This document shows, piece after piece, positions 4,380 to 47,321 of a stretch of 64,000 bases of DNA. How positions within the stretch are numbered: position 1 is the first letter of the stretch; each line of letters begins with the position of its first letter. Position numbers and translations under genes: made by a program. The stretch comes from Jiangella ureilytica (GTDB lineage: Bacteria > Actinomycetota > Actinomycetes > Jiangellales > Jiangellaceae). The stretch lies in the NCBI RefSeq assembly GCF_004348545.1, contig NZ_SMKL01000020.1, positions 1 to 64,000 on the forward strand, read 5' to 3'. Under the pieces are notes generated by a model that saw only the letters and a program-made list of their open reading frames with translations, was not told where the DNA came from and did no database searches.

Positions 4380-5891
4380 TCACTCGACCGTGAGGCCACG
4401 GCGACGGCTCACGGCGTAGGCCGCGATGCCACCGGCCAGGACCAGGCCCAGGCCGAGGATCAGCAGCTGGCTCGAGCCGGCACCGGTGTCGGGCAGCTCG
4501 CCGCCGTCGTCGTTGCCGTCCTCGTTGCCGTCCTCGTTGCCGTCGACCTCGGTGCCGTCGACCTCGGTCTCAGTGCCGTCGACCTCAACCTCAGTGCCGT
4601 CCACCTCGGTCTCGGTGCCGTCGACCTCGACCTCGGTCTCGGTGCCGTCGACCTCGACCTCGGTCTCGGTGCCGTCGACCTCGACCTCGGTCTCGGTGCC
4701 GTCCACCTCGACCTCGGTCTCGGTGCCGTCCACCTCGACCTCGGTCTCGGTGCCGTCGACCTCGGTCTCGGCCTCGTCGGCCAGGTGGTTCGGGCCGACG
4801 TGCGACTCGGCCAGCGTCACCGAGACGCCGCCCTCGACGGCACCCAGCACGGTGACCTGCAGAGCCGCGACGCTGTACGCCTCCGAGGTGGAGGCCTTCT
4901 CGACGTTGCTCGCCGCGCGGGCCGTCGTCGGCATGGCGGCGCCTGCTTCGGGCTGGTCCGGCTGGACGTTGACCTTGATGGACAGGATGTCGCTGAGGGC
5001 GGTACCCAGACCGTCGACCCCTGCATCCTCCAGCAGACCGTCGAGCAGTCCGACCAGCGTCGGACCGAGCACCGGGATCTCGCCGAGCGCGTCGACCAGC
5101 ACGCCGTTGAGGACGTCGACCAGGGCCGGACCGATCAGCTCGCTGTTGGGCGGCAGGTCGTTCAGACCCTCGAGCAGCACGTCGAGGTCGATCACGATCT
5201 GGCCGTTCGAGATGCTGATGCCCTCGCCGAGCTCCAGCGGCGGGATCGCCGGGTTGTTCAGCAGCGGGATGGTGATGACGATCTTGCCTTCGGCGATCTC
5301 GTAGTCGCGCGAGACCTCGAAGTCGTCGTCACCGGAGGGCGCGAGGTGCGCCTCCGACGAGATGGCGCCGAGCTCGAGCTCGACGTCGGCGATGAGGTCC
5401 GTGAGGCCCTCGCCGAGCAGGTCGGTCAGGTCGAAGGTCGCGTTCGCCGGGAAGCCGGCGTCGACACCCGTGCCGATGCCGCCGTTGTCCGCGACCGCAC
5501 CGGTCGCGGCGTCGGAGACGGCGCCGTCCTTGGCCGTCGCCCACTGGTTGACCGCACCCAGCTGGATGATGTCGTTCAGGGCGTCGAGCTGGATGCCCTC
5601 GGGGAAGTCGAGCTCGATCGAGTTCAGCAGTTCAACAGTGAGCGGGTTGGCCTCAGTGACAGGCTCGGGGTCGCCCAGGTTCTCCACCTCGACGCCGGCG
5701 AGCTCGGCGATGTCGTCCAGGTCAGCGCCCAGGACGGTGCCGTCCAGGAATCGCGCACCAGCGCGCGACTCGTCACCCTCGGCCGCTGCGGCGGGCGCGA
5801 GCCACGCACCGACAGCGAAAACCGGGGCAATACCAGCTGCGAGCAGCGTTGCCGCTGCGCGACGCCGGCGCATAACAGGTGTTGCAGGCAT
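4380..5891 (-). CDS. choice-of-anchor G family surface protein with LPDTG anchor
   Basis: 503 residues. Signal peptide at residues 1-37 with an Arg-rich n-region and AAA-type cleavage region, then the choice-of-anchor G signature ([37 protein letters not shown]). An acidic stalk of [12 protein letters not shown] repeats spans about residues 378-445. LPDTG is followed by a hydrophobic helix and an Arg-rich tail, the standard sortase sorting signal. The mature protein should be covalently attached to peptidoglycan. An AGGAG ribosome site sits 5-8 bases before the ATG. Paralogue of the next gene; no sortase gene lies in the window. Ligand or function of the globular part unknown. Confidence 0.85.
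4540..4780. repeat. in-gene tandem repeats coding the acidic stalk
   Basis: Near-identical 15-27 base units built on GTGCCGTCGACCTCG and GTGCCGTCCACCTCG on the plus strand code for [12 protein letters not shown] on the minus strand. Unit lengths are multiples of three, so copy-number change keeps the frame. Confidence 0.85.
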
Positions 5892-6427
5892 GCCTTCTCC
5901 TCTGGCATTTGCATTTCATGGCGGGCTCCTTCGCAGCGGCCATCAGATGTGCCTTGGCCGGCGAAGCGTGATCATGAACCTACAACTGCTCCGGAGACGT
6001 GTCTCGCACTTGGTGAATTTGCCTCCCGGGACACCGACCGCCCATTCACCCCGTGTCGCCCCCGATGCCTCGAAAGGCTCGATCCCGGAATTTGGGATCA
6101 GGCAGGACGATCCTTTCTTTCGCCTCGTACCCGGATGATCCGGACACAGTGGGAGCTAACGTCCTGCTGAATCCTGGCCAAATCGGGCGAAACACCCGTC
6201 GGTGACGCGCGCAAATCGGGACCACTGGTCTAAACCGAGAGAGTGCCCGCCGTGACCGAATCGTTACCAAAGGCCGACACGCGGGTCCGTTCCCGGCGCT
6301 CGATTTTTCCGCCCTATGTCCTGGTCAGAGCACCATTGAGCGGAGTGCGACTGGGCCATTCGGCTGATGGCGCCATGCGTTGTGCATATGTCAGTCGGCG
6401 GTGCGCCGGAATGGCCGGGAATGCCGA
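5892..6427. promoter_or_regulatory. upstream region of the first surface-protein gene
   Basis: About 540 bases without a convincing gene. It is lower in G+C than its surroundings, with runs such as GGAATTTGGGATC and CGAATCGTTACC. A short inverted repeat GATCCC-N7-GGGATC lies near 6092-6112. Its length suggests a long leader or regulated promoter for the 4380-5891 gene, but no -35/-10 pair stood out. Confidence 0.35.
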
Positions 6428-6473
6428 CGGCCGGCGGTGTGACCCGGAGTCCCGGATCCACGACCGCCGGCCG
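6428..6473 (-). terminator. hairpin terminator after the second surface-protein gene
   Basis: CGGCCGGCGGT pairs perfectly with ACCGCCGGCCG (11 bp) across a 24-base loop, about 30 bases past the minus-strand stop at 6505. Confidence 0.55.
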
Positions 6474-6504
6474 CCGCTTCTCAGTGGGTGTCGGGGCGTT
6501 CGGC

Positions 6505-8895
6505 TCAGCCCTGGCCGATGCCGCGCCGGCGGCTGACCGCGAAGGCCGCGAGCCCGCCGGAGAGCATCAGGCCCAGCCCGACGATCAGCAGCTGGCTCGA
6601 TGCGGTACCGGTGTCGGGCAGGTGCTCGTCGTCCGCGCCGCGGTCCTCGCGACCGTCGTCGTCGCCGGCCGTGTCGACGCCGTCGACCTCGGTGCCGTCG
6701 ACCTCGGTGCCGTCGACCTCAGTGCCGTCCACTTCAGTGCCGTCCACTTCAGTGCCGTCCACTTCAGTGCCGTCCACTTCAGTGCCGTCCACTTCAGTGC
6801 CGTCCACTTCAGTGCCGTCCACTTCAGTGCCGTCGACCTCGGTCTCGGTGCCGTCGACCTCGGTCTCGGTGCCGTCGACCTCGGTCTCGGTGCCGTCGAC
6901 CTCGGTTTCGGTGCCATCGACCTCGGTGCCATCCACCTCAGTCTCCGTGCCGTCGACCTCCGTACCGTCCACCTCGGTGCCGTCGACCTCGGTCTCGGTG
7001 CCGTCGACCTCGGTCTCGGTGCCGTCGACCTCGGTTTCGGTGCCATCGACCTCGGTGCCGTCGACCTCGGTCTCGGTGCCGTCCACCTCGGTTTCGGTGC
7101 CATCGACCTCGGTGCCGTCGACCTCGGTCTCGGTGCCGTCCACCTCGGTCTCGGTGCCATCGACCTCGGTGCCGTCGACCTCGGTCTCGGTGCCGTCCAC
7201 CTCGGTCTCGGTGCCGTCCACCTCGGTCTCGGTGCCGTCCACCTCGGTCTCGGTGCCATCGACCTCGGTCTCGGTGCCGTCCACCTCGGTGCCGTCCACC
7301 TCAGTCTCGGTGCCGTCCACCTCGGTCTCGCCACCGTCGTCCGCGAGGGTGTTGGGGCCGACCGTGGACTCGGCCAGCGTCACGACCGCGACCGGAGCCG
7401 AGGGCAGCGCCGTCACCTCGATCGCCGCCACGCTGTACGGGCCGTCGCTGACGCGGGCCAGCGCGCTCACCGGGGCGACCGGCTGGTCGTCCTGGACGTT
7501 GAGCGTGATGGACAGGATCGACGCGAGCAGCTCGCCCACCGGGGTGAGCGCGTCGGTGAGCGATTCGACCAGGCCGGCCACCGTCTCGCCGAGCGTCGTG
7601 AGTACCCCGCCTTCGGCGAACACCGCCTCGTCGATCAGCCCGCCGACCGTGGTCAGCAGCGTGTCGAGGAGCGGCGCGATCAGCCCGGAGATCAGCCCGA
7701 CGACGACGCCGGAGCTGTTGTTCACGACCTCGGCCTCGCCGGTGACGATGTTCTGGAGCGTGTCGCTCAGCTGCAGGTCCAGCACGCCGTCGAGGATCGG
7801 CAGCGCGCCGTCGACCTCGGCGTAGATCTTCAGATCCAGCTGGGCCGCGTTCAGCGCGCTCTCGACCGCGTCGACCACGTCGCTGACCAGCGTGTCCAGC
7901 AGGGTGCCGATGGTCTCGGCGAGCTGGTCGACGACAGCGTTGCTCAGCAGCTCGGTGTTGGGCGCCTGGTCGTTGAGGCCGCCGGCCAGGGTGTCGAGGT
8001 CGATGACCAGCGTGCCCTCGGCCAGGTTCAGCTCGACACCGGTGCCCTCGCCGAGCGGCGTCGCCAGGATCTCCTGCAGCGCACCCTGCAGGTCGGTCTC
8101 CAGCGTCACCGTGATCTCGGGGTTCTGCACCCCGATGACGGACAGCAGGTTCAGCAGCCCGTCCAGCGACGCGACCGTACTGGCGATGAGGCCCTCGGGT
8201 CCGGCCAGCCCGTTGACGGTGTCGTCGACGGTGCCGACGGCGTCCTCGAGGGCGGGCACGAGATCGGCGAGCAGGGGAAGTGTCAGCGTCAGCTGACCGC
8301 CGGCGATCTCATAGTCGCGGGTGACCTCGAACTCCTCGCCCGCCGGCGCCAGGTGCGCCTCGGACGAGATGGCGCCGAGCTCGAGTTCGAGGTCGGCGAT
8401 CAGGTCGGTCAGCGCGTCACCGAGCAGGTCGGTGAGGTCGAACGTCGCGTTGCCGGGGAAGCCGGCCTCGGTGCCGGTCCCGACGCCGCCGTTGTCGGCG
8501 ACCGCGCCCGTCGCGGCGTGCGAGACGCCGCCGTCCTCGGCCGACGCCCACTGGTTGACGGCGCCGAGCTGGATGATGTCGCTCAGCGGCAGCTGCAACC
8601 CGCCCGGCAGCGACACGTTCAGGGTGTCCAGGACCGTGAGGTCGAGCGGGTTCGCGTCGGTGACCGGCTCGGCCTGCCCGAGGTTCTCGACCTCGACGCC
8701 GGCCAGTTCGGCCAGGCTGTCGAGATCGGTCCCGAGGACCTCTCCGCTCAGGAATCGTGCGGCCGCGCGCGATTCGTCACCTTCGGCTGCCGATGCCGGC
8801 ACCAGCCATGCACCGACGGCGACTACCGGGGCCACTCCGGCCGCCAGGAGCGTTGCCGCTACCCGGCGCCGGCGATGTCTTTCCCAGGAAGCCAT
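6505..8895 (-). CDS. large choice-of-anchor G family surface protein with LPDTG anchor
   Basis: 796 residues. Signal peptide ending near ASA (residues 1-37), then the choice-of-anchor G domain ([37 protein letters not shown]). A long Leu/Asp-rich middle has repeated hydrophobic heptads (for example [20 protein letters not shown]). An acidic stalk with roughly 35 VDG units occupies about residues 520-750. LPDTGTASS, a membrane helix and RRR follow as a sorting signal. The N-terminal 200 residues closely match the smaller paralogue at 4380-5891, so the pair arose by duplication and the stalk then expanded. Predicted to be sortase-linked to the wall. Function of the exposed domain unknown. Confidence 0.85.
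6665..7330. repeat. long in-gene tandem repeat array ([12 protein letters not shown] stalk)
   Basis: About 660 bases of 15- and 21-base units. Nine or more consecutive 15-base units sit at the distal end and mixed 15/21 units elsewhere. Units differ mainly by silent changes (GTCGAC versus GTCCAC, GTGCCG versus GTGCCA). The low divergence suggests recent expansion or homogenisation by slippage or recombination. Confidence 0.9.
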
Positions 8896-42604: not shown

Positions 42605-42660
42605 CCATGATCATCAACCTTTTGTGTCGTCATAGCAGCTCACAAGGTTGATGATCATGG
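42605..42660. repeat. intra-operon palindrome containing a stop codon
   Basis: CCATGATCATCAACCTT pairs perfectly with AAGGTTGATGATCATGG (17 bp), with a further TGTG/CACA pairing after a two-base bulge and a 14-base loop. The TGA at 42655-42657 of the upstream hydrolase gene lies in the right arm. It sits in the middle of an otherwise coupled operon, so it may attenuate transcription or stabilise an mRNA end rather than act as a full terminator. Confidence 0.7.
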
Positions 42661-43803
42661 CGCGAGTCCGTCGAACGCCCGGTCCGCCGCCTGCTGGCGC
42701 GCGCGATCGGCCGCCCGCACCCGCGCCGTCACCGCTGCCAGCCGCTCCCCCGGCCCGACGAGGTCGACGCGGCTGGCCGCGGCCACCGCCGTCACCAGGT
42801 CGGCGGGAACGGCGGCCGGACCGCCCAGCGCGCCCGCGATGGCCCCGGCCATCGAGGCGATGGAGTCGGAGTCGCGGCCGTAGTTGACGCCGCCGATGAC
42901 GGAGTCGCGCCAGTCGCCGCGGGCGATGGCCAGCAGGCCCAGCGCGACCGGCAGCTCCTCGATGGTGTGCACGCGGCTCGGCCGCCGGGCGCCCAGGCCC
43001 TGGTCGCGGTAGTCCTCGCCGACGGTGTCATAGGGCGCGATGGCCGCCCGCAGCCTCCCGGACTCGACCGCCTCGGTCCAGTGCCCGATGGACGCCGCGG
43101 TGTCGAGGACCGCCTCGATGCCGGCCCTCGTCCCGTCCTTCGCCAGCCGCAGGGCCGCCGCCAGGACGTCATCGACCGTCGCGCCGGGCGCGGCCGCCGC
43201 GGCCACGCAGGCGGCCATGACCCCGGCGGCCTCGCGGCCGTAGGACGACTGGTGCGCGCCGGCGACGTCGACGGCCTCGGCGTACGCGGCGTCGGGGTCG
43301 GCGGCGTTGACGATGCCGACCGGCGCGATGTACATGGCCGCGCCGCAGTTGACGGCGTTGCCGACGCCGGCCTCGCGCGGGTCGGCGTGACCCCAGTGCA
43401 GCCGCAGCGCCATGAACTTCTCGGCCAGGAACACCCGCTGCAGGGGCAGCGCCTCGGCCTCCAGCTCGGGGATCCAGACCTTGCGGCCGATCATCAGCGG
43501 CACCAGCCGCTCGGCCACGTCGTAGGCCGTCAAGTGCGCCTGCGCCTGCTCGTAGACCTCGACCACGAGGTGCGTCATCAAGGTGTCGTCGGTGATGTGG
43601 CCGTCGCCCTTGTGGTACGGCGCGATGGGCCGCGCGGTGCGCCAGTCCTCGTGGTACGGCGGGACGATGCCTTCGACCCAGCCGCCCCAGCGGTCCCGGA
43701 TCTGCCGCGGCGACCAGCCCTCCGTCGCACCACCGAGCGCGTCGCCGACGGCGGCTCCCGTCAGGCATCCGACCGCTGTATCGATGAGTGCGTCACTGGT
43801 CAC
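42655..43803 (-). CDS. ADP-ribosylglycohydrolase family protein
   Basis: 382 residues. The core motifs are intact: VGCLTGAAVGDALGGATEG (about 10-28), DGHITDDTLMTHLV (about 67-80, TDDT metal site) and NYGRDSDSIASMAGAIAGALGG (about 310-331). A GTG start overlaps the preceding gene's stop (GTGA). Of the four paralogues this and the one at 45058 look the most catalytically complete. Likely cytosolic hydrolase of a ribosyl bond. Confidence 0.85.
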   Translation of the reverse strand: MTSDALIDTAVGCLTGAAVGDALGGATEGWSPRQIRDRWGGWVEGIVPPYHEDWRTARPIAPYHKGDGHITDDTLMTHLVVEVYEQAQAHLTAYDVAERLVPLMIGRKVWIPELEAEALPLQRVFLAEKFMALRLHWGHADPREAGVGNAVNCGAAMYIAPVGIVNAADPDAAYAEAVDVAGAHQSSYGREAAGVMAACVAAAAAPGATVDDVLAAALRLAKDGTRAGIEAVLDTAASIGHWTEAVESGRLRAAIAPYDTVGEDYRDQGLGARRPSRVHTIEELPVALGLLAIARGDWRDSVIGGVNYGRDSDSIASMAGAIAGALGGPAAVPADLVTAVAAASRVDLVGPGERLAAVTARVRAADRARQQAADRAFDGLAP

Positions 43804-44852
43804 GAGATCGTCCTTCCCTCGATGGAGCCTGCCAGGTCGACGAGGTCGACGCCGGCCAGATCGGGTGAGCAGCAGCCGGCGAGTCGCCGGCACCGCTCGA
43901 CCCAGGTCGTGGGGAGCGCGCCCAGCCCGTGCGCCGCCCCGGTGAGCGCGCCCGTCAGCGCCGGTGCGCTGTCGGCCAGGGTGGGCAGGCACACGGCGGC
44001 GGTGACGGCGGCGATTGGCCGCTCCCCGCCCCGCTCGGCGGCCTGCGCCAGCGCGACGGCGACAGCGACCGTCTGGGCCGCGGCGACGCCGTAGCTGTAG
44101 ACGTGGTCGACGATCTCGTCGAGCTGGGCGACGGCGTCGGCCGCGGTCTCCGCTGTGGCAGAGACGGTGAGCGCCCGGGACACCGTCGTCGCCAGGAGCC
44201 CGTCCGCCGGCAGTGCGTCGGCGGCGGCCGCCGCCCAGGCGTCGGTGAGCGGCTCGCCGCGGACCAGCCGGGCCATCGTCTCCGCGACCGCCCGCGCGGC
44301 TGCCAGCCCGTCACCGTCGTTCGTGACCTCGGCGTCCCAGCCGGCCAGCGTGGCGGCCGTGGCCGGGCCGTCGGCGACGAGGCCGATCGCGACCGCACGG
44401 ACCGCGGCGGCGTCGTCGAAGTGGTGCGGGTTGTCGTGCCCGGTCAGCGGCGGGTCGACCTCGCGGCGAAGCGCGTCGGCCGCGGCGGCGACGCTGATCC
44501 GGCCCCGTGGCAGTGTTCCGGCGGCGACGGCGCGGCGCCAGTGTGTGTGCACGTCCGCGCGGCTCAGCGGGCCGGGGCGCGCGGCGTCCAACAGCCAGCG
44601 CAGCGTCCACGCCGCCCACTCCGCGTCGTCGCTCGACCCGAGCCGCAGCGGCGCCGTCGGCTGGTTGAGCGCGAACGGCACCGGCAGCGTCGTCACCTGC
44701 TGCGTCTCGGCGAACTCGTCCAGTTCGCGGCGCAGGCGGCGGGTCCACGGCGGCAGCAGCTGGGACCGGTGCCGGACGGCGGGCCAGCCGGCCGCGTCGC
44801 CGATGGCGAGTCCGAGCAGCGCCCCCGCGGTGCGGTCGCGACGATCGTTCAC
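43800..44852 (-). CDS. ADP-ribosylglycohydrolase family protein, degenerate metal site
   Basis: 350 residues. The N-terminal motif GALLGLAIGDAAGWPAV is intact, and SSDDAEWAAWTLRWLL may stand for the first acidic cluster. The C-terminal signature that normally reads GxDxDT/S is CLPTLADSAPALTGALTGA, which lacks the first Asp and the Thr/Ser spacing. It may be a non-catalytic subunit or have different chemistry. The GTG start overlaps the stop of the small VGRGP-repeat frame (GTGA); the stop overlaps the next hydrolase start. Confidence 0.75.
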   Translation of the reverse strand: MNDRRDRTAGALLGLAIGDAAGWPAVRHRSQLLPPWTRRLRRELDEFAETQQVTTLPVPFALNQPTAPLRLGSSDDAEWAAWTLRWLLDAARPGPLSRADVHTHWRRAVAAGTLPRGRISVAAAADALRREVDPPLTGHDNPHHFDDAAAVRAVAIGLVADGPATAATLAGWDAEVTNDGDGLAAARAVAETMARLVRGEPLTDAWAAAAADALPADGLLATTVSRALTVSATAETAADAVAQLDEIVDHVYSYGVAAAQTVAVAVALAQAAERGGERPIAAVTAAVCLPTLADSAPALTGALTGAAHGLGALPTTWVERCRRLAGCCSPDLAGVDLVDLAGSIEGRTIS

Positions 44853-45061
44853 GTGCGTGCCCCCGGCCGCGCCGCCGCCGTGGCCCGTTCAGCAGGTCCG
44901 GCACTGTCGGTGCCCACCCCTAGGGTGGGTCCCACCCGGTCCGGGCGGGGACTGACCGGACCACGGCCGACCGGACCGCGGCCGACCGGACCGCGGCCGA
45001 CCGGACCGCGGCCGACCGGACCGCGGCCGACCCGACCGCGGCGGACCTGCCGTTCTCTCAT
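44849..45061 (-). CDS. candidate 70-residue VGRGP-repeat peptide
   Basis: Open frame of 70 codons whose ATG overlaps the upstream hydrolase stop (ATGA, 45058-45061) and whose TGA overlaps the next hydrolase GTG (GTGA, 44849-44852), the same junctions as the operon's known genes. Sequence: basic start MRERQVRRGR, five to six VGRGP pentapeptides, then a Pro/Ala/Arg-rich tail. No family recognised. Predicted disordered and strongly basic. It may be a real small protein or simply a frame kept open to carry ribosomes between the two hydrolase genes. Confidence 0.5.
   Translation of the reverse strand: MRERQVRRGRVGRGPVGRGPVGRGPVGRGPVGRGPVSPRPDRVGPTLGVGTDSAGPAERATAAARPGART
44954..45043. repeat. six tandem 15-bp repeats
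   Basis: Unit GACCGGACCGCGGCC, six copies in a row (44954, 44969, 44984, 44999, 45014, 45029). The outer two have one to two changes. On the minus strand in the small frame each unit codes for VGRGP. Confidence 0.9.
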
Positions 45062-46017
45062 GAGCCTTCCTCCAGGTGGTCGGCCAGCCGGTCGGCGAGG
45101 TCGAGCGGATGCAGGCCCGCCACGACCTCGCCCAGGCAGCGGCCGGTGACCGGCCCGATCTGCGCCTGCCAGTCCGCAGGCACCGCGCCGAGGCCGCCGT
45201 GTGCCCCGGCCAGCGCGCCGGCGATGGCGGCGGTGGTGTCGGCGTCGCGCCCCATCGACACGGCGCCGGTCACCGCGGCGGCGAACGAGCCCTCCGCCGC
45301 CAGGAACGCGGCGAACGCCAACGCGACCGCCTCCGGCGCCAGATCGGTCCACGGATACGACCGGACGACGACGGCCTCGAGCAGCGCGGGCACGTCGCCC
45401 GCGTGGACCAGAGCCGACCGCAACGACCGCGCCGTCCACGAGTCCGAAGGGACGGCGTCCAGTGCGGCGGCCGCGATGTCGGCGGCGGGGGCGCGACCCG
45501 TCATGGCGACGGCGACAGCCGCGGCCACCGCGACCCCGGCGTGCACGCCCTCGCCGGAGTGGCTGACCGCGCCGTCGACGGCCGCCAGCCGAGCGGCCAG
45601 AGCCGGGTCCCCCGCCGCGTACACGCCGTGCACCGCGGACCGCATCGCCAGCCCGTCGCTCCACGAGTGCAGGTGCCGTCCGCTCGCCGGCGGCCGCAGC
45701 CCGGCGCGCAGGTTCTCGATGGTCCCCAGTTCACTGAACCCGGCGCCCGGGAACCCGCCCGAGCGCCCGGCCAGGTGCGTGACCCACGCGTCGGCCACGT
45801 GGTCGCTCGTGAGCCCGGTCCCGTGCTCCAGCAGCAGCAGCGCGCTGAACGCGGCGTACTCGGTGTCGTCCGTGCCCGTAGGCTGGTCGGTCAAGAAGCC
45901 CTGTATCCGGTGTCCGAACTTCGCCGCGATCGCCTCGGCGGTCATGTTCTCCGCGGGGGCGCCCATGGCGTCGCCGATGGCGAGCCCGAGCAGGCACCCC
46001 CGCGCCCGGTCCCTCAT
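45058..46017 (-). CDS. ADP-ribosylglycohydrolase family protein
   Basis: 319 residues, the compact form. RARGCLLGLAIGDAMGAPAENM (residues 3-24), QPTGTDDTEYAAFSALLLLEHG (TDDT metal ligands) and SMGRDADTTAAIAGALAGAHGG (DADT) complete the DraG-type dinuclear metal site. The ATG shares a base with the stop of the sugar-binding protein (TGATG). First of the four hydrolases in transcription order, so it may act directly on the imported compound. Confidence 0.87.
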   Translation of the reverse strand: MRDRARGCLLGLAIGDAMGAPAENMTAEAIAAKFGHRIQGFLTDQPTGTDDTEYAAFSALLLLEHGTGLTSDHVADAWVTHLAGRSGGFPGAGFSELGTIENLRAGLRPPASGRHLHSWSDGLAMRSAVHGVYAAGDPALAARLAAVDGAVSHSGEGVHAGVAVAAAVAVAMTGRAPAADIAAAALDAVPSDSWTARSLRSALVHAGDVPALLEAVVVRSYPWTDLAPEAVALAFAAFLAAEGSFAAAVTGAVSMGRDADTTAAIAGALAGAHGGLGAVPADWQAQIGPVTGRCLGEVVAGLHPLDLADRLADHLEEGS

Positions 46018-47321
46018 CAACGCTGGTAGCGCTCGAGGACGGCATTGCCCTCGTCGACCAGCTTGGTGCCCAGCTCCTCCAGCGAGATCTGGTCGCTGAA
46101 GTACTCCTGGAACGCCGGGTTCGCGATCCGTGACTTCCATTCCTCGAACCCCTTGACCTGCTGGAACGGCGCCATCTCCAGGTCGTCGGCGGTGGCCGTC
46201 GCGACGTCCCAGCCGGTGGCCGGGTCGTTCAGCTCCGGGCTCTGCGCCGCCTCCTGGCTGGTCGGCAGCAGCCAGTCGCCGGCCGCCAGTCGGACCTGGT
46301 TCTCGGCGTTGAGGAAGTACTCGATGAACCGCACGGCCTCCTCCGGGTGCTCGGTCTCGGCCGAGACCGAGAGGGTCTGGCTGACGGCGCCCTGCGCGCT
46401 GCTGTCGCCTTCGAGCGCCGGCAGCGTCACCCAGTCGAAGCCGTCGGGCGCCTGCTCGATGATCTGCTGGCGCAGCCAGATCGCGCCCGGCAGCATGGCG
46501 TACTGGCCGGCGAAGAAGCCGGGCAGCGCGTCGGCCGACGACATGCCGATGCCGTCGGGCGAGGCGGAGCCGTCGGTGTAGATCATCTCGTGGATGCGGC
46601 GTGGCACCTCCTGGTCGGCCTCGTCGAAGACCGCCTGCACCTCGCCGGTCGGGTCGCTGAAGTAGTCGCCGCCGAAGTTGCGGGCCAGGTTGAGGATGCG
46701 GTTGGCCGGCGCGTTCAGCGGGATGACGGCGCCGAACTGGCCGTCGGTGGTGAGCTGTGCGGCGACGTCGCCGAACTCGTCCCACGTCCACGGGTCCTCG
46801 ATGGTCGGCAGCGTGACGCCGGCTGCCTCGAGCAGTGTCCGGTTGGCGAAGACGACCTGCGACTCCTGCAGGAACGGCACCCCGTAGACGGCGTCGCCGA
46901 AGGTCGCGGTGTCCCAGGCGCCCTCGCGGATGTCGTCGCGGATCTCGTCGGACAGGTACTCCGACAGGTCCAGGACGTTGCCGCGGTCGCCGAAGTCCTG
47001 CAGCACCGTGGACTCGTAGTGGAACACGTCCGGGGCGGTGCCGCCCTCGAACGACGTCATCAGCTGGTCGTGCACGTTGTTCCAGTCGCCCTGGAGCAGC
47101 TCGACCTGGATGTCCGGGTTGGCCTCGTTCCAGGCCGCGACGATGGCCTCGTTGGCCTCGACGCTCGCGGTCTGCCAGGCCAGCGTCTGGAAGGTCAGCT
47201 CGACGGGCTCGCCGCCGCTGCCGCCGTCGTCGCCGGAGCCGGTCTCGTCGTCACCTCCGCCGCAGGCCGCGAGCACCAGGCCCGCGGCCGCCGCGATGGC
47301 GAGACTTCTCATCGAACGCAT
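46017..47321 (-). CDS. ABC transporter sugar-binding lipoprotein
   Basis: 434 residues. Signal peptide with lipobox LVLAAC at about residue 20, Gly/Asp-rich linker, then the family 1 extracellular solute-binding fold (LTFQTLAWQTASVEANEAIVAAWNEANPDIQVEL, GTAPDVFHYES, YGVPFLQESQVVFANRTLL). AGGAGG precedes the ATG by six bases. It delivers a ligand to the MalF/MalG-type permeases encoded just upstream; no ATPase gene is in the window, so a shared MsiK-like ATPase is likely. Ligand unknown; the downstream hydrolases suggest a ribosylated or oligosaccharide compound. Confidence 0.88.
   Translation of the reverse strand: MRSMRSLAIAAAAGLVLAACGGGDDETGSGDDGGSGGEPVELTFQTLAWQTASVEANEAIVAAWNEANPDIQVELLQGDWNNVHDQLMTSFEGGTAPDVFHYESTVLQDFGDRGNVLDLSEYLSDEIRDDIREGAWDTATFGDAVYGVPFLQESQVVFANRTLLEAAGVTLPTIEDPWTWDEFGDVAAQLTTDGQFGAVIPLNAPANRILNLARNFGGDYFSDPTGEVQAVFDEADQEVPRRIHEMIYTDGSASPDGIGMSSADALPGFFAGQYAMLPGAIWLRQQIIEQAPDGFDWVTLPALEGDSSAQGAVSQTLSVSAETEHPEEAVRFIEYFLNAENQVRLAAGDWLLPTSQEAAQSPELNDPATGWDVATATADDLEMAPFQQVKGFEEWKSRIANPAFQEYFSDQISLEELGTKLVDEGNAVLERYQR

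Follow-up and report, generated by a model that had tools for sequence, protein, structure and literature searches.

In the 64,000 nucleotides of Jiangella ureilytica DNA analyzed here (contig NZ_SMKL01000020.1, positions 1 to 64,000; hereafter, the window), two neighboring ADP-ribosylglycohydrolase genes, A and B, are separated by a stretch that looks intergenic and is spanned from end to end by a short open frame. This raises the question of why such a spacer should be open exactly from the stop codon of one gene to the start codon of the next. The sequence-only reading had described a bridging frame of 70 codons with ATGA and GTGA overlaps and 15-bp repeats between the hydrolase genes; its coordinates proved exact, and the repeats were recovered by TRF. 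The features are listed in Table 1, which shows that the whole operon is built on overlapping junctions. A Shine-Dalgarno-like GGAGG (45069-45073) lies within gene A before the left junction, and at least its GGNGG core is present in nearly all Jiangella gene A tails; a GGGGG run of the same kind (44860-44864) lies shortly before the right junction. In the same operon, the C/D junction (window 42633-42660) begins with ATGATCATCAACCTT and apparently contains an inverted repeat, and its sequence has a relative in J. rhizosphaerae (L139).

Table 1. Features of the operon around the bridging frame, in window coordinates. G000 is the genome that contains the window; other G numbers denote further Jiangella genomes.
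Feature	Position	Strand	Remarks
Sugar-type ABC substrate-binding protein gene, upstream of A	46017..47321	-	Pfam PF01547; TGATG junction with A
Gene A, ADP-ribosylglycohydrolase, 319 aa	45058..46017	-	Pfam PF03747, E=1.8e-54
Left junction ATGA, shared by the A stop and the bridging-ORF start	45058..45061	-	ATG 45061-45059 overlaps TGA 45060-45058
Copy of the first codons of gene B, left end of spacer	45040..45057	-	15/18 identical to G006 B start
Bridging (relay) ORF, 70 sense codons and TGA	44849..45061	-	Open equivalent in 5/5 spacer-bearing Jiangella species
15-bp tandem array, reads VGRGP on the minus strand	44954..45047		6.3 copies, 96% matches (TRF)
Copy of dispersed palindromic element, Jiangella-specific	44905..44950		91% identical, E=5.5e-12
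Possible copy of gene A tail, just 5' of right junction	44853..44869	-	11/17 in G000
Right junction GTGA, shared by the bridging-ORF stop and the B start	44849..44852	-	TGA 44851-44849 overlaps GTG 44852-44850
Gene B, ADP-ribosylglycohydrolase, 350 aa, downstream	43800..44852	-	Pfam PF03747, E=8.8e-28
Gene C, ADP-ribosylglycohydrolase	42655..43803	-	Joined to B by GTGA (43800-43803)

The A/B junction was compared across 12 Jiangella genomes, one per species, a sample that represents few independent events. Gene B was found in all 12. In 7/12 species there is a direct GTGA overlap between A and B, so that the site is empty, and the two genes also overlap directly in the outgroup Haloactinopolyspora. 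In the remaining 5/12 a spacer lies at exactly the A/B point, and all five spacers are open from a left (A/G)TGA to a right GTGA, with 70 bridging codons in G000, 83 in G008, 59 in G009 (J. muralis), 65 in G001 and 166 in G011. The corresponding start-to-start offsets are 209, 248, 176, 194 and 497, all of them 2 mod 3, which is the sole register that ends the bridging frame in the start overlap of B. The sequence-only reading had proposed that in relatives the frame and overlaps might persist while the repeat number varied in steps of 15: the frame and both overlaps do persist, sequence and length change completely (59-166 codons), and the array itself was not found. Relatives provide the more telling comparison, and in all four other spacer-bearing species the frame is unbroken. 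In a tree of the two genes, the spacer occurs in two clades, {G000, G008} and {G009, G001, G011}, with spacer-free species between them; species within one clade are not independent observations, and the spacer history would be either two gains or one gain followed by at least three precise losses.

How surprising such a frame is depends on what is counted. Openness alone is weak evidence: the reading register of the bridging frame continues without a stop up to 45664, about 47% of GC-rich intergenic 210-nt stretches are open in a given frame, the five spacers (GC 72-79%) each have a chance of 0.17-0.52 of being open, and one reverse frame is likewise stop-free in 5/5 of them. The combination of both exact junctions with an open frame is rare, occurring in 5 of 657 same-strand spacers of 40-900 nt (about 0.8%); these five cases are unrelated to this locus and span 21-44 codons. 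The earlier statement that both junctions together with an uninterrupted frame have a small chance thus stands.

The frame could encode an undescribed basic peptide, as had been suggested: a start, a stop and a Shine-Dalgarno sequence are all present, and the VGRGP-containing product is rich in Arg and Gly. However, over 57 codons of the spacer frame dN is 0.121 and dS 0.141 (dN/dS about 0.86), the substitutions fall 7:6:8 on the three codon positions, and no purifying selection on the amino acids was detected across these codons. Bridging-frame GC3 is 0.73-0.85, versus 0.93-0.95 in the flanking genes (0.73 versus 0.94 in G000), and outside the dispersed element the spacer sequence is unrelated between the two clades. 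The peptide has no Pfam or NCBIfam match, and plasmid relatives of it were looked for and not found. By these measures the bridging peptide is essentially neutral and not conserved; the candidate of a conserved peptide was dropped on the missing database matches and the neutral substitutions, and we regard a functional peptide as highly improbable. An RNA element was likewise dropped, as Rfam gave no match. The VGRGP array is private to G000, being absent from 11/11 Jiangella relatives, and hence does not form the functional core; the filler differs by species, with a TTGATCATGGAGAA inverted repeat in G008 and, in G011, the dispersed core in a duplicated copy. The further suggestion that a repeat had expanded in frame to keep ribosomes moving is therefore supported for the frame, which persists in 5/5 spacers, and not for the repeat. 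The array period was also rejected as telling in itself, because 115/228 intergenic tandem arrays in Jiangella have a period divisible by 3, so that a period of 15 is weak evidence. Large tandem arrays with units of 15, 21, 27, 57 and 78 bp, GTGCCGTCGACCTCGGT-like and some longer than 500 bp, also occupy window positions 4497-7345.

The ends of the spacers point to where the junctions came from. The 18 nt after the left NTGA match the first codons of B at 15/18 positions in G000 and G008, a match equaled by only 0.18% of real gene starts. On the other side, the 17 nt that precede the right GTGA are similar to the tail of A, with its Shine-Dalgarno sequence, in G009 and G001 (13/17, null 0.6%) and in G008 (12/17, null 1.6%), the resemblance being weak in G000 (null 6%) and in G011. 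Since the spacer ends copy the head of B and the tail of A, both exact junctions are most likely copies of one ancestral GTGA junction, and the surprise at finding two exact junctions would be explained in this way. A second locus shows junction duplication in a fresh state. There, a GTGA overlap joins a BadF-type kinase gene to a ceramidase-like gene in G009, G002, G003, G005 and G006, the site thus being empty in 5/7 species. In G011 (L277, just upstream of 1501) a 104-bp tandem duplication across the GTGA produces a 35-codon bridging ORF, and in G001 (L278, just upstream of 1501) two 113-bp duplications produce two chained 38-codon ORFs; both offsets, 104 and 113, are again 2 mod 3. It is important to mention that, in a scan of 1,612 same-strand pairs, only this second locus had NTGA in both copies, and a general excess of junction duplications was dropped for that reason.

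We therefore propose, with a probability of about 0.68, that the A/B spacers arose by duplication of the junction and that their relay frame is kept because termination-reinitiation fails over gaps of more than about 20 nt. The ancestral A/B junction would have been a 4-nt GTGA overlap coupling the two ADP-ribosylglycohydrolase genes by termination-reinitiation. A segment comprising the end of A, the GTGA and the start of B would have been duplicated with an offset of 2 mod 3, whereby the old start of B would open a short frame ending exactly in the duplicated A stop that overlaps the new start of B. A ribosome terminating on A would restart on the bridging ORF, terminate at the GTGA and restart on B. 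The room between the copies would later have gained dispersed and tandem repeats (in G000, the palindromic element and the 15-bp VGRGP array), and frame-breaking insertions would have been purged by selection, as coupling would fail over an untranslated gap. In reporter tests, coupling was almost lost at gaps of about 20-38 nt (PMC10666635). Since coupling works only where genes overlap or lie a very few nucleotides apart, an untranslated spacer of 200 nt would uncouple A and B, and a bridging frame overlapping at each end would restore the path in two steps. The sequences compared show the architecture, the empty sites, the persistence of the frame, the duplicated ends and the lack of peptide conservation; from these we infer translation of the bridging frame and selection on the coupling.

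The length changes within the spacers bear directly on this proposal. Three indels, of 3, 6 and 9 nt, distinguish the G009 spacer from that of G001, duplications within the G011 spacer are offset by 9, 54 and 261 (a further offset, 138, is derived), and the unit of the G000 array is 15 nt long. As a control we used uncoupled orthologous spacers, whose net length changes distribute 46:48:50 over residues 0:1:2 and in which 23/78 indels (about 30%) are multiples of 3. Genes in the control blocks were called by a simple codon-position GC script rather than a standard gene finder. If each of six register-keeping observations is given a chance of about 0.32, we estimate a combined chance of roughly 1e-3, with openness uncounted and a modest independence assumed. 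Elsewhere, 4-nt overlaps are stable, being preserved in 768/839 orthologous comparisons.

The main rival is that B may start independently from its own ribosome-binding site, the spacer being neutral and its open frame a by-product of a high GC content and of its recent origin. The sequence just 5' of the right GTG, which is Shine-Dalgarno-like in the spacers (GGAGG, GGAAGG or GGGGG), is what this rival would predict, as are the sizeable chance of openness of each single spacer (17-52%) and the non-coding look of peptide and codon usage. It accounts poorly for 5/5 offsets holding register through many independent length changes, when control spacers do so in about one third of cases, for the rarity of exact relays elsewhere (only about 0.8%) and for the same result at the second locus. 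On balance, we consider a neutral spacer rather unlikely.

A different origin would be a mobile unit that has stop/start overlaps as its target and, upon insertion, leaves them duplicated. The spacer core is indeed a dispersed near-palindrome (TTGTCRGTGCCCGCCCSTAGGGTGGG-NN-CCCACCC..., L036-L065) with 0-164 copies per Jiangella genome; it was missing in ten genomes from five further genera of the family and, within the genomes of the order that were compared, occurs in Jiangella only. The two-clade distribution of the spacer is consistent with repeated insertion, and insertion at -4 overlaps has a precedent in the mycobacterial interspersed repetitive units, MIRU (PMC12548453). However, only the core matches elsewhere in the genome and the spacer ends do not, the sampled core copies lie in ordinary spacers that show no relay architecture, and the second locus lacks the element, being clearly a tandem duplication of coding sequence. 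Moreover, no other split overlap in the sampled Jiangella blocks carries the core. An origin by insertion of a mobile unit is, in our judgment, unlikely. One arm of the near-palindrome resembles the RecA-NDp/PafBC DNA-damage promoter consensus, tTGTCRgtg-N8-TAnnnT; the copies show no preferred orientation or distance to starts, and a role as functional promoter was dropped because their placement is not promoter-like. A second inverted-repeat family, TTGATCATGGAGAA...TTCTCCATGATCAA, is present in Jiangella intergenic DNA (the G008 spacer, L010; L007, L042 and L056) and often adjoins the first element. In being a hairpin repeat of about 50 bp scattered through genomes, the core is similar to REP/MITE-type dispersed palindromes, but it did not cause the two junctions and is just one filler.

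The closest known arrangement is that of MIRU (e.g., senX3-regX3; Supply et al. 1997, cited after PMC12548453 and PMC4213456), which is reported as limited to mycobacteria. In both cases a repeat lies in a -4 nt stop/start overlap, and a short ORF is coupled to its neighbors. In Jiangella the site is a 4-nt overlap intact in relatives (7/12 species at the A/B locus and 5/7 at the second), with a junction at both ends and an open linking frame (5/5 at the A/B locus; G011 and G001 at the second). By our own arithmetic, the published MIRU units of 77 bp and 53 bp each have a length of 2 mod 3, as do all Jiangella offsets, and MIRU units may chain head to tail, as at the second locus in G001. MIRU units measure about 46-101 bp, whereas the Jiangella offsets are 176-497 at the A/B locus and 104-113 at the second. 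MIRU, moreover, is one mobile unit family at many loci, whereas in Jiangella the spacer ends are local gene copies, dispersal is confined to the core hairpin, and the filling of the spacer differs from species to species. The Jiangella case would work like MIRU but would have arisen by local junction duplication and not from one dispersed unit.

Each Jiangella junction is a standard 4-nt overlap of the kind known from termination-reinitiation coupling at ATGA/GTGA (PMC6728339, PMC10666635), the difference being that two junctions follow one another and that the ORF separating them seemingly has no protein role. Coupling mini-ORFs and uORFs that deliver ribosomes, such as the axe-txe minigene (PMC8708949), may be likened to it as short ORFs that act in cis on the next gene and for which the stop-to-start distance matters, but they lie in leaders or within genes, whereas the Jiangella ORF, apparently made by duplication, is located within an operon, where it covers the gap entirely.

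The A/B junction is also found in many actinobacterial genera, and the frame of B starts at the overlap in 20/74 loci. Bridging frames with both ends exact were observed in Marinitenerispora sediminis (103 codons; L102, upstream of 3001) and in Murinocardiopsis flavida (238 codons, 70% GC and non-coding-like; L136, upstream of 3001), both Nocardiopsaceae; as single sequences each, these putative relay frames are leads only. In Streptomyces (L075, L077 and L132) the start of B stays at the stop of A, and B carries low-complexity N-terminal extensions of 273 (Streptomyces fragilis), 69 and 45 aa, which may represent an alternative way of bridging a gap.

Tentatively, and as a possibility rather than a probability, tandem duplication of coupled stop/start overlaps could be a general birth route for short intercistronic ORFs that needs no mobile element and in which the requirement for continued termination-reinitiation would let only offsets of 2 mod 3 pass, MIRU-type repeats being such units that later spread. 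The Jiangella spacers carry the warning that exact overlaps and a conserved frame in an intergenic ORF need not mean a useful peptide. They also suggest a simple way in which short intercistronic ORFs, and MIRU-like arrays outside mycobacteria, could originate. Finally, they provide a concrete evolutionary test of selection on coupling at overlapping genes: where an overlap is split, a frame that ribosomes can pass, whatever its sequence, is apparently kept in preference to a gap.
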